From NCBI RefSeq assembly GCF_900102265.1, contig NZ_FNBH01000001.1, forward strand, positions 1,240,001 to 1,304,000: 64,000 nucleotides of DNA, in the 5' to 3' direction. This document shows positions 9,317 to 42,578 of this stretch, in pieces. The stretch is from Epilithonimonas hungarica (GTDB taxonomy: Bacteria; Bacteroidota; Bacteroidia; Flavobacteriales; Weeksellaceae). Position numbers and translations under genes: made by a program. Each line of letters begins with the position of its first letter. Position 1 is the stretch's first letter. Under the pieces are notes generated by a model. It saw only the letters and a program-made list of their open reading frames with translations. It did no database searches and was not told the origin of the DNA.

Positions 9317-9403
9317 TTGGCAGCTTGATCCGTCTTCCGCTCCCAATCTTTTCACACCACTACGTTGCGTAAAAAGGATTTCCGCTCAAGCCGGCCGGGC
9401 TGC
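9317..9403 (+). repeat. Modular 3-prime repeat family, copy A
   Basis: Left arm GCAGCTTGATCCGTCTTCCG, an inner AATCTTTT...AAAAAGGATT hairpin with a variable loop, and right arm TTCCGCTCAAG...GGGCTGC. GCAGC pairs with GCTGC and TTGA with TCAA at the outside. This is the shortest copy, lacking the insert seen in D and E. It starts 7 nt after purE. Confidence 0.75.
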
Positions 9404-9444
9404 AGGTTCAGTATAAAAACAAGATTAGTCATAGGATACAAACT

Positions 9445-9484
9445 TGGTCATTCCGTAGGAATCTTGACTACTATTGAATGACAA
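9445..9484. repeat. TCATTCCGTAGGAATCT palindrome family, decayed copy
   Basis: GGTCATTCCGTAGGAATCT (9446-9464) is an intact left arm; only GAATGACA (9476-9483) remains of the right arm. Better copies are at 40591 and 42115. Confidence 0.6.
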
Positions 9485-9496
9485 AGATTATGAGTC

Positions 9497-9805
9497 TTAT
9501 TTTTTACGCTTAAATACAAAACTAATTTCTGAGGTCCTTACATTGGGTTGTAAGCCGGTTACATATTCATTATTCCCAAAATTAGGATGAACGGTTTCTA
9601 TTTTTGAAAAAACATCAACTAGTTCCCAGCCTTCATCACCCAATGAATTAAGAGAGCTATTTGATATGTCAATTTTTTTTGATGTAAACGTTGCCAATGC
9701 ATCTTGTTCAGTTCCTTTGAATATAATTGTTTTATATTCCCATTTTGAAGTGCAAGAAGTAAAGAATATAGTTAAAATTAATCCAACTAAAAATAATTTT
9801 TTCAT
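9497..9805 (-). CDS. Small DUF4177-like lipoprotein
   Basis: 102 residues with a lipoprotein signal (LILTIFFTSC, Cys18). The core WEYKTIIFKGTEQDALAT followed by LNSLGDEGWELVDVF matches the DUF4177 pattern (aromatic start, then LN-x-LG-x-EGWELV). DUF4177 proteins are small alpha/beta proteins of unknown role. No operon partner. Confidence 0.65.
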   Translation of the reverse strand: MKKLFLVGLILTIFFTSCTSKWEYKTIIFKGTEQDALATFTSKKIDISNSSLNSLGDEGWELVDVFSKIETVHPNFGNNEYVTGLQPNVRTSEISFVFKRKK

Positions 9806-9880
9806 TTTGTTAGTAGTTTGTTTCTAACAAAACTAATTTATTCTGATATTCTTTTCTTACGGAAATCCGTAATCTGAAAA

Positions 9881-10726
9881 CTACTTATCCAAAATTCCCC
9901 GAATCTTATTCGCATTTCTGATCAACTCTTCCAGATAATCAAAATTCTCCTTCTCCAAAGCAGATTTGAATTTTCTAAGCTGTGTAATATGTTCGTTCAA
10001 GACATCCAAAACATTTTCTTTGTTCTGACGGAAAATAGGAACCCACATTTCGGGATGAGATTTTGCTAAACGGACTGTACTTGAGAAACCGGAACTTGCC
10101 AATTGGAAAATCGTGTCTTCCTCACGTTCTTTTTCCAAAACGGTATTGGCTAACGCATAAGAAGTGATATGCGAAATATGCGAAATGTAAGCCGTGTGAA
10201 TATCGTGCGCATCGGCATTCATATAGATGGGATGCATTTCCAAAGTTTCGATGACTTTTTCTACAATTTCCAAAGCATTTTCATCAGATTCTTCTTTGTT
10301 GCAGATCACGGCTGCTTTTCCTGTGAAACTGTCTTTGGTCGCTGCATTCGGACCGGAGTTTTCTGTTCCCCACATTGGATGGAAAGCCACGAAACGTTTT
10401 CTCTTCGGATGATTTTTGATAGAATCTACAATTCCTGATTTTGTAGAGCCAACATCCATTACAATTTGTTTTTCATTGATCAAATCCAGAATATAGGGTA
10501 AAATTTTCTTGGCAGAATCTACCGGAACCGAAATAATAATCAAATCAGAATTCCTGATTCCATTTTCAAGATCCGCTTTTTCATCAATGATTTTGAGTTC
10601 GAGTGCTTTGTTGAGATTTTCTTCATTTTGGTCAATTCCGTAAACGAAATTGGTGAAGTTTTTTTCTTTTAATTTTAGTGCGATGGAACCTCCAATCAAT
10701 CCTGTTCCGATAATGCCTATCTTCAT
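9881..10726 (-). CDS. tyrA: Prephenate dehydrogenase
   Basis: 281 residues. It oxidatively decarboxylates prephenate to 4-hydroxyphenylpyruvate for tyrosine synthesis. The Rossmann loop GTGLIGGS is at residues 7-14; FVAFHPMWGTENSGP carries the catalytic His; HDIHTAYISHISHITSYALA is the helical dimer domain typical of TyrA. There is no fused chorismate mutase or ACT domain, so allosteric tyrosine control may be replaced by transcriptional control: a Tyr-codon leader peptide and a terminator lie just upstream (10757-10862). Confidence 0.94.
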   Translation of the reverse strand: MKIGIIGTGLIGGSIALKLKEKNFTNFVYGIDQNEENLNKALELKIIDEKADLENGIRNSDLIIISVPVDSAKKILPYILDLINEKQIVMDVGSTKSGIVDSIKNHPKRKRFVAFHPMWGTENSGPNAATKDSFTGKAAVICNKEESDENALEIVEKVIETLEMHPIYMNADAHDIHTAYISHISHITSYALANTVLEKEREEDTIFQLASSGFSSTVRLAKSHPEMWVPIFRQNKENVLDVLNEHITQLRKFKSALEKENFDYLEELIRNANKIRGILDK

Positions 10727-10756: not shown

Positions 10757-10785
10757 AAAAAACCCCGTCATCAGGACGAGGTTTT
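10757..10785 (-). terminator. Attenuator terminator upstream of tyrA
   Basis: In the minus-strand RNA AAAACCUCGUC pairs with GACGGGGUUUU around CUGAU, followed by a U run. It ends about 30 nt before the tyrA ATG, so it sits in the leader rather than after a gene. CAGGATTAGG at the leader-peptide stop (10805-10814) can pair with CCTCGTCCTG (10772-10781) in 9 of 10 positions, forming an antiterminator. Confidence 0.75.
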
Positions 10786-10805
10786 GATATTTCTACATAC
10801 GAATC

Positions 10806-10862
10806 CTAATCCTGTTCCAAGGTCTGAATTGCGTAATAATATGTTGTCTTTGTTGTTTTCAC
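10806..10862 (-). CDS. Tyrosine leader peptide controlling tyrA
   Basis: An 18-codon frame from GTG at 10862 to TAG at 10806 encodes MKTTKTTYYYAIQTLEQD, with three consecutive Tyr codons. The attenuator terminator follows 20 nt downstream, then tyrA. A ribosome stalled on the Tyr codons would leave the CAGGATTAGG segment free to pair with the terminator 5-prime arm; a ribosome reaching the stop would cover it. Every part needed for ribosome-mediated attenuation is present. The GTG start is inferred, since no ATG is in frame. Confidence 0.72.
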   Translation of the reverse strand: MKTTKTTYYYAIQTLEQD

Positions 10863-10866
10863 AAAA

Positions 10867-10898
10867 CGAAGATAGAAATTAATTTATTAAAATTCAAA
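10867..10898 (-). promoter_or_regulatory. Promoter of the tyrA leader
   Basis: TTTG-N20-TATCTTCG on the minus strand. The -7 box is followed by TTTT and then the leader GTG, the same 4-nt spacing as at the TauE/SafE and bifunctional-nuclease genes, so the leader would be translated from the very 5-prime end of the RNA. Confidence 0.45.
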
Positions 10899-10916: not shown

Positions 10917-11008
10917 ACCACATAGACACATAGTTTGTAAAGTCTTTAATTAAGACGAAATAACTATTTAAACTTTTTAATATCAATAATTCTATGTGTC
11001 TATGTGGT
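10917..11008. repeat. Inverted repeat CACATAGACACATAG
   Basis: ACCACATAGACACATAG (10917-10933) and its exact complement CTATGTGTCTATGTGGT (10992-11008) are 58 bp apart, with a smaller GTCTT...AAGAC palindrome inside. It lies just past the antiporter stop codon (11016). This sequence type is, from memory, a dispersed element in Bacteroidetes genomes. Confidence 0.75.
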
Positions 11009-11015
11009 TTTTAAC

Positions 11016-13304
11016 TTATGGATTCGAAACAATTAAAGTGGATGGAATGTCAGACAGCCAAAGACTTTTTGTGTCGATAAGACTTTTCCAGCTTTTACTG
11101 CTGATCAGCATCAGGTCCTGTGATGCCAGAAAGTCTTTCTCAATCGTTTTCTCGTTGTAAAGTGTGATGTGATTTGGTGCGATATGCTCGATGTTTCTTA
11201 TCAATTCACGGATTTCCGTATTCTTACGGATTTGTCCGGCTGCATCCAGAATGATAACCTGAGAATCGTTGTTGTTGATCAATCTTTTTGCATATTCAAC
11301 CAAATAAAAATCGCTCAAATCAAAGATCGGAATAAAGATTCTATCTGCACTTTCGAAGTTTTTATCAACCATTATTCCAACAGGAATATTGGTTTTATCC
11401 AGAATACTCAATGTAAAATCATCAAAAGGAGAGGAGTTGAAAATGTAAGATCTTCCTTTTACTGTGTTCAATAATTTTTCTGGATTGATGATTTTAGTTG
11501 TGAAACCAAGCAATTTTCCAAGCAGAGTACCTTCATAGATCGATTTTCCTAGCATTATCAAAAGCAGATCATAATTACCTTTATTAGTAATATTGATCAG
11601 ATCATTTTCGATGTCTGTTGAAGCTTTGAAAAGCGTTGTGACTTCCAGTTTCAGCTCGTGGGAAGTATCGATGATATTTTCGAATAGACCTTTTTCATAA
11701 TCTTCGATATCAAAAGCGTGTAGTTCATCAACAGGAGCAATATTCATTGCAGTTACACTTTTGTTTCCGTTCATTTTATGAGTGAAATTATCGGACAATT
11801 TCAATAATGTACTTCCAGACTCTGGGGTGTCAAATGAAAGAAGAATCTTGTACTTTCCACTGTTTTCATCGGTTTCTTCATCAACCATCGATTTTTTTCC
11901 CTTGAAAATAAAATTGATCAAATCTAAAGAAGGCCCTGTCATAAATGTCGTGAACAACGCCATTATAACCATCATAGCAAAAATCTCAGGACTCAAAACT
12001 CCTAGATCATAACCGATATTAAGGACAATCAATTCCATCAGACCTCTCGTGTTCATCAATGCTCCGATGGTGAGGCTGTCTTTCCAGTCTATTCTTAGAA
12101 ATTTTGCAGTTAGTGCACTCCCAATGAATTTTCCTGTGACAGCGGTCGCAATTATCAAACCGGCAATCATCCAAAGATGTTTGTCATTCAGTAACCCTAT
12201 TTGAGTTCTCAATCCGGTAAATACGAAGAACAATGGAAGTAATAAAACCAAAGCAACATCTTCAACTTTCTCAATGAAAAGATTTCTGAATTTCACATTT
12301 TCCGGCATTATCGCACCCGCCATAAATGCTCCGAACAATGCGTGAATCCCAATAACCTCTGTCGCATAAGCAGAGATGATCAATGTCAGAAAGAAGATAG
12401 CCACAATAGATTTATTGATGATCCCTTTTCCGACCTGTAATTCTCCAATTCTTTTCAGGAAAGGTCTTACGATCTTTATCATCAGGAAAACGTAAGCAAT
12501 CGCCATAAGAATTACGTAGATTGAACTAGCGAAAGAACCAGCTTTTACAATGGCAATCACAGCCGCCAAAATACACCAGGCTGTAATATCATCCGCTGCT
12601 GCACAAGTAATGACTATGGTTCCGAGCTTGGTTTTCTGAAGGTTTCTTTCCTGAACGATTCTTGCCAAAACAGGAAAAGCTGTAATACTCATAGCAATCG
12701 CAATAAACAACGCAAACGAACTGAACTGGATTCCGTCTGGTGCAAATTCTTTATAAATGAAGTAAGATAATCCAATTCCCAGAGCAAACGGGATAATTAT
12801 ACTTGCGTGGCTGATGACAACCGCGTCGTGCGCCTTTTTCCTGAGGACACTCAAATCCAGCTCCATCCCGACGATATACATAAAAAGGATCAAACCGATC
12901 TGACTCAAAAACTGTAGATTTCCTAAAGATTCTTTTGGAAATAGGAAAGCGGAAAACTCCGGGAAATATAATCCTAAGAGTGAAGGCCCGAGAACAATTC
13001 CTGCAATCATTTCTCCGATTACAGAAGGTTGTTTCATCTTCATACAGATCCAGCCAAATAATCTTGCAACCAGAATAATTGTCACGATTTGCGCCAAAAG
13101 CAAAGCTAACGGATGATGGAGATTGGTTGAAAAGGATTCGACAAAGTTCTCCCAAATCGTACCTTTTGATTCTTTGATGACAATATTTTCGCCAGCTTCC
13201 AGCGTTTTTCCTTCTATCAGAAACCAATATACCAGACAGGAGAAGAACGCAATTGTAACTGTGTAAAATATAATATTCCTGTACTTTTTCATATTCAATT
13301 TCAT
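11016..13304 (-). CDS. CPA2-family cation:proton antiporter with C-terminal Usp-like domain
   Basis: 762 residues. After an N-terminal membrane segment (about 10-30) and a short periplasmic stretch, residues ~65-480 carry a KefB/NhaS-type exchanger (MKQPSVIGEMIAGIVLGPSL; ITCAAADDITAWCILA with the paired acidic residues; HALFGAFMAGAIMP). Residues ~500-762 are soluble and resemble two Usp-like halves (YKILLSFDTPESGSTLLKL; GIMVDKN). It probably exchanges Na+ or K+ for H+ across the inner membrane. A second Met at residue 5 is an alternative start. Confidence 0.9.
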   Translation of the reverse strand: MKLNMKKYRNIIFYTVTIAFFSCLVYWFLIEGKTLEAGENIVIKESKGTIWENFVESFSTNLHHPLALLLAQIVTIILVARLFGWICMKMKQPSVIGEMIAGIVLGPSLLGLYFPEFSAFLFPKESLGNLQFLSQIGLILFMYIVGMELDLSVLRKKAHDAVVISHASIIIPFALGIGLSYFIYKEFAPDGIQFSSFALFIAIAMSITAFPVLARIVQERNLQKTKLGTIVITCAAADDITAWCILAAVIAIVKAGSFASSIYVILMAIAYVFLMIKIVRPFLKRIGELQVGKGIINKSIVAIFFLTLIISAYATEVIGIHALFGAFMAGAIMPENVKFRNLFIEKVEDVALVLLLPLFFVFTGLRTQIGLLNDKHLWMIAGLIIATAVTGKFIGSALTAKFLRIDWKDSLTIGALMNTRGLMELIVLNIGYDLGVLSPEIFAMMVIMALFTTFMTGPSLDLINFIFKGKKSMVDEETDENSGKYKILLSFDTPESGSTLLKLSDNFTHKMNGNKSVTAMNIAPVDELHAFDIEDYEKGLFENIIDTSHELKLEVTTLFKASTDIENDLINITNKGNYDLLLIMLGKSIYEGTLLGKLLGFTTKIINPEKLLNTVKGRSYIFNSSPFDDFTLSILDKTNIPVGIMVDKNFESADRIFIPIFDLSDFYLVEYAKRLINNNDSQVIILDAAGQIRKNTEIRELIRNIEHIAPNHITLYNEKTIEKDFLASQDLMLISSKSWKSLIDTKSLWLSDIPSTLIVSNP

Positions 13305-14866: not shown

Positions 14867-15238
14867 TTATTTTAATTTTTTGAATCCCGTAAATTCTGCT
14901 TTTTCTTTACATTTAGAATAATTGATCTCAAATCTGGAATCATTTTTCGGATACAGAAGAACGTATTCCGGGCAAGGTTGTTTTTGAGCCTGGCTTTTGT
15001 CAAAATCAATTGCTCCGTTAGTAATTATTTCGTCTTTCAGTTGTTTTTCAGATATCTTATTCGCTTCCATTTCTTTTTTGAAATTTTCGGAATAAGAAAA
15101 ATCTTTGGTCAAAGTCTCTGCAATGACCCTGTCATTCGGGAAATAAGAGCAGCTCGCACCTTTCTGGTTGAGGACAAAGAAAACGATCAATAATCCCGGA
15201 ACCAATCCGATGAAATAGAATTTAAGTTTTTTAAGCAT
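14867..15238 (-). CDS. Small membrane-anchored DUF4258-type protein
   Basis: 123 residues with one N-terminal transmembrane segment (FYFIGLVPGLLIVFFVLNQ) and a soluble remainder containing CSYFPNDRV, a KDEIITNGAIDFDKS stretch, PCPEYVLLYP and a final Cys. Flavobacteria often encode a DUF4258 protein like this beside the Ald-like gene; the assignment is by recall of that pair. Three Cys in the exported part could form disulfides. It lies 9 nt after the Ald-like gene and 3 nt before the kinase. Confidence 0.6.
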   Translation of the reverse strand: MLKKLKFYFIGLVPGLLIVFFVLNQKGASCSYFPNDRVIAETLTKDFSYSENFKKEMEANKISEKQLKDEIITNGAIDFDKSQAQKQPCPEYVLLYPKNDSRFEINYSKCKEKAEFTGFKKLK

Positions 15239-42262: not shown

Positions 42263-42270
42263 TATCTTTG
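42263..42270 (+). promoter_or_regulatory. -7-like box of rpsO
   Basis: TATCTTTG, 38 nt before the rpsO ATG. The only upstream TTTG (42229) is too far, so the -33 element is unclear. Confidence 0.4.
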
Positions 42271-42308
42271 CATCCGAATTTACATAATAATCATTAAATA
42301 ATATTGGA

Positions 42309-42578
42309 ATGTATTTAACATCAGAAAAGAAAGCAGAGATCTTCGCAAAACACGGAAAATCTGCACAAGACACAGGAACTGCTGAAGGACAAGTTGCTCT
42401 ATTCACTTTTAGGATCAACCACCTTACTCAGCATTTGAAAGCTAACCACAAAGACTTCAACACAGAAAGATCTCTTGTGAAGTTAGTAGGTAAAAGAAAA
42501 GCTCTTTTAGATTATTTGAAGAAAAAAGATATCAACAGATATAGAGCAATTATCGCTGAATTAGGAATCAGAAAGTAA
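42309..42578 (+). CDS. rpsO: 30S ribosomal protein S15
   Basis: 89 residues, exact S15 length. Conserved RNA-contact segments: GTAEGQVALFTFRINHLTQH, LKANHKDFNTERSLVKLVGK and RKALLDYLKKKDINRYRAII. It binds the 16S rRNA central domain early in 30S assembly. Monocistronic with its own terminator. Confidence 0.98.
   Translation: MYLTSEKKAEIFAKHGKSAQDTGTAEGQVALFTFRINHLTQHLKANHKDFNTERSLVKLVGKRKALLDYLKKKDINRYRAIIAELGIRK

Follow-up and report, generated by a model that had tools for sequence, protein, structure and literature searches.

A conserved tyrosine-codon leader and candidate transcription attenuator upstream of tyrA in Epilithonimonas and related Weeksellaceae

The tyrA gene of Epilithonimonas hungarica is preceded by a short leader that very probably acts as a ribosome-mediated transcription attenuator, sensing charged tyrosyl-tRNA and controlling tyrA. 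The proposal is built on promoter spacing, an open reading frame (ORF), a run of three tyrosine codons (YYY), competing helices and the position before tyrA, all of them read from the DNA. The locus combines the features by which leader-peptide attenuators are recognised: a run of end-product codons in a short ORF (YYY, codons 8-10), an intrinsic terminator between leader and tyrA, a downstream gene that makes the sensed amino acid and, from sequence and folding, an antiterminator that would exclude the terminator and that a ribosome on the stop codon could mask, with an equilibrium effect that is clear in E. hungarica and not in most leaders of the Chryseobacterium group.

The window, by which we mean the whole stretch of 64,000 nucleotides analysed, carries tyrA, the presumed regulated gene, on its reverse strand (9881-10726, ATG at 10726). 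The product is a prephenate dehydrogenase (NCBIfam NF006307, 373 bits for a cut-off of 295; Pfam PDH_N and PDH_C) with 96% identity to TyrA of E. caeni. Upstream of it on the same strand lie, from distal to proximal, a cation antiporter gene (13304-11016), the 18-codon leader ORF (10806-10862; GTG start at 10862-10860, stop TAG at 10808-10806), which encodes MKTTKTTYYYAIQTLEQD, and the terminator, whose end is 30 nt from the tyrA start. This arrangement agrees with the first-pass annotation, which had placed an 18-residue peptide with a GTG start ahead of a terminator and tyrA. It had also assigned the control to tyrA alone, a point that was not confirmed: a small DUF4177 gene (9497-9805), likewise on the reverse strand, begins 75 nt 3' of tyrA, and a scan of 9400-9950 revealed no terminator-like site between the two genes, so the transcription unit may hold both tyrA and the DUF4177 gene.

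Other elements were noticed in the window. An inverted repeat, ACCACATAGACACATAG and CTATGTGTCTATGTGGT about 70 nt apart, lies at 10918-11016, directly upstream of the tyrA promoter. Its core, CATAGACACATAG, has 19 copies in the E. hungarica genome (a control pattern has 0), four as facing pairs 70-90 nt apart, and thus resembles a small palindromic repeat family. A match to the S15-Flavobacteria ribosomal protein leader (Rfam RF03161, 55.8 bits) occupies 42263-42311 on the forward strand.

The presumed sensor is the codon run TAT TAT TAC (10833-10841, reverse strand). Among 1440 small ORFs in the 64-kb window (10-40 codons, both strands) the tyrA leader is the only one that encodes YYY, and when the upstream 330 nt were resampled 20,000 times with a first-order Markov model, 204 of the copies contained any YYY small ORF. 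Recurrence of the tyrosine codons in relatives had been proposed as a check, and they do recur: a YYY leader lies upstream of tyrA in 22 of 23 genomes examined from the genus, the remaining one (L016) reading YYD. In a second set, the best 80 of 188 tyrA loci, which shares some genomes with the first, 76 have YYY. The other four loci are L031, with YYD, and L070, L089 and L101, which have no leader. In L070 (Chryseobacterium echinoideorum) a degenerate terminator-like stretch, identified by eye, remains upstream of tyrA although the leader is gone, suggesting that the leader was lost recently; this locus is probably a natural loss.

Further counts were made on 99 distinct leaders chosen for carrying at least YY, so the genus and locus counts above are the unbiased YYY frequencies. 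A weak paralogue match (L024), a sequence of 10 bases (L157) and L161-L175, which represent other genes or families, were dropped before counting, and L150 (G182) did not pass the ORF filter, although the covariance model described below matches it. For the group split, assignment by exclusion put 68 leaders in the Chryseobacterium group, and L041 was counted with the genus group. YYY is present in 98 of the 99 leaders, and the remaining one carries GAC (Asp). The first tyrosine codon is TAT in all 99, the second TAT in 96 and TAC in 3, and the third TAT in 53 and TAC in 45; variation in the run is thus limited to third codon positions, the one GAC excepted.

The ORF keeps its position, which is what would be expected if the peptide itself had a function as a small protein and the features of the RNA were incidental. 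We regard this as very improbable, because the 99 leaders encode 76 distinct peptides that vary at every position outside YYY and have called lengths from 13 to 19 codons. Replacement is nearly complete at the extreme, as in MKANAQHYYYFSEIVFG (C. piscicola), MFNQATYYYELTT (g32, one of the genera compared) and VELNNTYYYSILKRT, all of which keep YYY. Among these leaders, the conserved element is YYY together with the RNA, not the rest of the peptide.

Nascent-peptide arrest, for which TnaC is the model, offers another way to sense tyrosine, in which the peptide would bind the free amino acid and neither codons nor tRNA would be read. The frequent Thr directly before YYY (90/99) and Ile as the second residue after it (87/99) could be such a peptide constraint, but both residues vary (A, I, N or H at the first position; N, S, M, V or L at the second), and the most diverged peptides keep only YYY. 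Moreover, 87 of 99 leaders place the last tyrosine codon 8 codons ahead of the stop, as the geometry of codon stalling needs. We therefore give an arrest sensor little credence and retain the attenuator that reads tyrosine codons.

The terminator consists of an 11-bp stem (AAAACCTCGTC/GACGGGGTTTT, 10785-10759), a 5-nt loop (CTGAT) and a T run to 10757. Two terminator-like sites were found in 2.5 kb, nested in this one hairpin (10785-10757), and 1.6 were expected from shuffled sequences; since such sites are frequent by chance, the terminator by itself carries no weight as evidence. Folded as a whole, the leader scores only moderately better than shuffles (z -1.72; 13 of 200 shuffles as good). 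Over an alignment of 38 non-redundant leaders the terminator is paired in 95.1% of cells, compared with at most 64.6% when the stem is slid; covariation in it is weak, with one compensated pair.

The putative antiterminator joins a 5' arm, CAGGATTAGG (10805-10814), to a 3' arm, CCTCGTCCTG (10772-10781), made up of the 5' arm of the terminator and the start of its loop. Nine of the ten positions pair and the stop codon (10808-10806) lies inside the 5' arm, both as first annotated. In most leaders the 3' arm, and hence the 5' arm of the terminator, reads CCTCGTCC, and the antiterminator 5' arm follows the pattern GGAT.AGG; a GG(A/C)(T/C) motif stands near the stop in 96 of 99 distinct leaders and was not found in 3. 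The register of this motif differs among the 96 leaders: it begins 3 nt upstream of the stop in 66 and 4 nt upstream in 23, and in the remaining 7 it begins 2-3 nt past the first base of the stop. This argues that the RNA motif is maintained while the reading frame beneath it shifts.

Across these 96 leaders the eight positions of the helix form 7 pairs in 78, 6 in 14 and 5 in 4. Position 5 is unpaired in 90 (24 U-C and 66 A-C), a mismatch that looks forced because a stop-codon base, which cannot match the terminator C, falls there in both main registers. Changes that keep pairing were seen at position 4 (U to C in 5) and position 6 (A to G in 39), and letters that break it at positions 3, 6, 7 and 8 (in 4, 6, 8 and 10 leaders, respectively). 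The terminator differs in g23 and complementarity is retained in other letters; the g32 helix runs to as many as 9 pairs without a break. When the leaders were scanned without gaps, L042, L057 and L075 retained 5 contiguous pairs and the best helix of L072 lay elsewhere. Both the terminator and the antiterminator are thus kept in relatives, mostly through pair-preserving changes, which bears out the second check that had been proposed, conservation of the stems.

Shuffling the antiterminator helix alone yielded modest values (median p 0.047; under 0.05 in 53 of 99), and the helix exceeded the other windows of the same leader in 99 of 99. Its covariation, scored on an alignment one base out of register for Chryseobacterium, was no better in paired cells than in shuffles (257/500) and is not significant, so the argument for the antiterminator rests on the position count and on the nascent-folding control given below. 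A possible protector hairpin, tentatively drawn from the centroid fold and the 38-leader alignment, would pair ACGCAATTC (10826-10834), directly 3' of the tyrosine codons, with GGATTCGT (10799-10806); 78.3% of its cells are paired versus at most 65.4% when slid, and it is no better than column shuffles (227/500).

From this arrangement we propose the following mechanism. Transcription would start at the GTG, or within about 1 nt of it, and the ribosome would load directly onto the 5' end. With Tyr-tRNA plentiful, the ribosome would reach the stop codon inside the antiterminator arm and mask that arm; the terminator would then form and stop transcription ahead of tyrA. With Tyr-tRNA scarce, the ribosome would stall at TAT-TAT-TAC, 8 codons upstream of the stop, and would leave CAGGATTAGG free to capture the 5' arm of the terminator as it emerges, allowing RNA polymerase to enter tyrA. 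That the leader is translated and used in vivo, and that it responds to Tyr-tRNA in this direction, is what we infer.

We folded the leaders with a ribosome modelled as covering 13 nt from the A-site codon, a footprint known from E. coli toeprints. For the E. hungarica leader, the predicted probability of the terminator was 0.00 with the A site at the first tyrosine codon, 0.03 at the third and 0.96 at the stop, compared with 0.58 with no ribosome. The value was higher at the stop than at the third tyrosine codon in 93 of 99 leaders, by more than 0.2 in only 33, and the stalled value was below the shuffled mean in only 61 of 99. At equilibrium and with a finished terminator, a stall at the third tyrosine codon still favoured termination in 53 of 68 leaders of the Chryseobacterium group (median 0.95), 14 of 24 of the genus group, 4 of 5 from g23 and 1 of 2 from g32, the terminator probability being under 0.5 in the others (15/68, 10/24, 1/5 and 1/2, respectively). 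The switch in most Chryseobacterium leaders must therefore be kinetic. When the nascent RNA was folded with a ribosome at the third tyrosine codon, the terminator arm was captured by the antiterminator region with a probability above 0.5 in 97 of 99 leaders (mean 0.823, as compared with 0.216 in shuffles), and the real value exceeded the shuffled mean in 99 of 99. In these models, a kinetic switch fits nearly all leaders, and an equilibrium switch fits E. hungarica and some relatives.

A promoter-like sequence precedes the leader on the reverse strand, with a -7 box of the TAnnTTTG type, TATCTTCG (10867-10874), that ends 4 nt before the GTG, and a -33-like TTTG element (10895-10898) 20 nt 5' of the box. 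The distance from the end of a TAnn(T/C)T(T/C)G box to the start codon is 4 nt in 83 of 99 distinct leaders, 5 nt in 6 and 1 nt in 6, and no box was found in 4; the six 1-nt cases have five TTG starts and one ATG, each one codon upstream of another start. According to the available text of the two reports, the -7 box spans -12 to -5 in Flavobacterium psychrophilum (PMC9723704) and F. johnsoniae (PMC6847099), and the latter gives the consensus TTTG/TAnnTTTG with a -33 motif that is much less evident. Together with the 4-nt spacing, this location predicts +1 on the G of the GTG. The tyrA leader mRNA is thus probably leaderless, and the promoter spacing agrees with the probably leaderless GTG start that had been put forward; in F. 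psychrophilum such mRNAs are the minority (5.5%; PMC9723704, available text).

To survey the family, a covariance model was built from the 38 non-redundant leaders and run over 197 genomes. It matched 87 of the 197 at an E value of 0.01 or better, 80 of them strongly (2e-5 or better): 23/23 in the genus of the window, 50/50 in g20 (Chryseobacterium), 5/5 in g23 and 2/2 in g32. A match lies 14-82 nt upstream of tyrA and on its strand in 80 of these 80 genomes. An 81st strong match (G012:C125:76-181), in a fragmented genome that is 73% complete, runs by eye into a tyrA start at the contig end. The remaining seven genomes had only weak matches, which by eye are ordinary terminators. No tyrosine element was found at other genes: 11 further weak places (E 7e-4 to 0.01) look by eye like gene tails with ordinary terminators, and the YYY leader is present in none.

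These matches bear on whether the hairpin might be the ordinary terminator of the antiporter gene, or a constitutive partial terminator, with the small ORF arising by chance. That gene does lie upstream on the same strand, and the chance frequency of terminator-like sites is in keeping with such an origin. The comparison contradicts it, because the strong matches precede tyrA in 81 of 81 cases across the 197 genomes, YYY and the antiterminator arm, like the position of the ORF, its frame through YYY and its stop, are kept in four genera, and a promoter at a fixed distance from the start of the small ORF separates it from the antiporter gene. We thus judge a chance ORF beside an ordinary terminator highly unlikely, and take the hairpin as part of the proposed tyrosine attenuator.

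The E. hungarica genome contains other candidate leaders (L188, L189 and L190): hisG is preceded by a His leader, MTTQFMHHHHHFLAQTGR, trpE by a Trp leader with WWW, MKITNNKNWWWLSNSLSGLKGLSVF, and the gene that stands in front of ilvD by an Ile/Val/Leu leader, MNNTIIILVILVIIGFRW. The Trp leader starts 5 nt after a -7-like box, and the distances are longer for the His and Ile/Val/Leu leaders. The patterns used detected no attenuator on the prephenate dehydratase gene of the same genome, which lies about 15 nt behind another ORF.

Beyond the family, 14 regions upstream of tyrA were read from elsewhere in the order. In 13 of them (L162-L172, L174 and L175, not L173), 11 of which are from f3, presumably Flavobacteriaceae, a gene run to tyrA is preceded by a Phe- and Tyr-rich peptide that sometimes also contains Trp. 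Similar Phe/Tyr-rich leaders occur within the family in three g21 regions (L219, L220 and L222); MATNRFYFSNNFYFFFSRS is an example of a mixed leader. Pfam comparisons identified the first gene of these runs as a prephenate dehydratase in 5 of 5 tested and the second as an aminotransferase in 2 of 2 tested. From their sequences, mixed Phe/Tyr(/Trp) leaders are apparently a widespread attenuator of their own. It is plausible that the mixed leader of pheA-aminotransferase-tyrA operons was the ancestor of the tyrosine-only leader.

Within the family, we compared 25 tyrA loci that lack the leader, one per genome. A homologue of one small gene ends at most 150 nt before tyrA in 16 of them, the same gene lies 260 and 313 nt before tyrA in 2 more, and it is absent in 7. 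The E. hungarica copy (14867-15238) is located behind an alanine-dehydrogenase-like gene (below the NCBIfam cut-off), and in L004 the small gene precedes the YYY leader itself. A TyrA tree of 47 rows requires four changes of the YYY label, at least two of them forced by supported branches, and long branches meet in it; the tree allows either one gain followed by losses or several gains. As a tentative scenario, to which we give somewhat less than even chances, a leaderless tyrosine-only attenuator would have arisen as tyrA left the operon with the mixed leader and gained its own promoter, its sensor narrowing from two amino acids to one, and would have been lost, or never gained, in relatives that carry tyrA immediately after another gene.

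The mechanism class is old; new are the tyrosine-only specificity on tyrA, the probable leaderless design and the embedded stop codon. A compact and conserved tyrosine-only attenuator with the stop built into the antiterminator offers a clean test case of attenuation that dispenses with a Shine-Dalgarno sequence and probably also with a 5' UTR, and it does so in the Bacteroidota, where attenuation has been little studied. Around this one gene, the presence, absence and change in specificity of a leader can be traced genus by genus.

The first-pass annotation had called a single-gene tyrosine attenuator with a probably leaderless GTG start unusual. This stands for the tyrosine-only attenuator of tyrA, as the literature available to the search, in which subscription journals are thinly covered, yielded no paper describing a leader peptide with tyrosine codons ahead of tyrA; it does not stand for the leaderless start, which Sinorhizobium meliloti trpL also has and which the 5-nt box spacing suggests for the Trp leader of the same genome. 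Leader-peptide attenuation has been described for the trp, his, leu, thr, ilv and pheA operons (PMC1183508, available text). Strong clues for it have been reported before amino acid biosynthesis operons of F. psychrophilum (PMC9723704), and small ORFs reminiscent of attenuation leaders in Bacteroides thetaiotaomicron (PMC7366714); a tyrosine leader is not named in the main text of the former, where 'tyr' has 0 occurrences, nor in the available text of the latter. The available text of PMC2659441 lists Shewanella aroF with an 'Attenuator sensing tyr-tRNA', citing a 1980 paper on E. coli aroF-tyrA, so tyrosine attenuation may have been proposed earlier on other grounds.

A search at Rfam gathering thresholds gave no match in the tyrA leader region and no T-box anywhere in the window. 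Tyrosine control is otherwise known mainly through repressors and T-boxes, which bind tRNA directly and have no leader peptide. The Tyr T-box riboswitches of Firmicutes (PMC1262725, available text) likewise control tyrosine genes at the RNA level. In the permissive Rfam search, Phe_leader (RF01859) was one of five sub-threshold matches, with 22.3 bits for a gathering threshold of 55, and by the Rfam rule the tyrA leader is therefore not a member. E. coli pheL-pheA (RF01859; PMC11802643, available text) nevertheless shares with it a leader with end-product codons, a competing terminator and antiterminator and an aromatic gene downstream; the tyrA leader differs in having Tyr and not Phe codons, in being probably leaderless and in its Bacteroidota promoter. 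Corynebacterium glutamicum aroR, before aroF, is also a leader with aromatic codons (Phe-Tyr-Phe) ahead of an aromatic-pathway gene, but it responds to limitation for Phe and not Tyr (PMC11802643, available text), whereas the tyrA leader has Tyr codons only. The mixed leaders of f3 and g21 share with it the pathway gene tyrA, the order and the succession of leader and terminator; they differ in combining Phe, Tyr and sometimes Trp codons, and the 13 order-level ones start with ATG and, judged by eye, have no -7 box at the 4-5 nt distance. Finally, the mRNA of S. meliloti trpL begins at its start codon (PMC7298713, available text), as predicted for the tyrA leader, although trpL is a Trp leader of 14 amino acids with an ATG start and belongs to another phylum.
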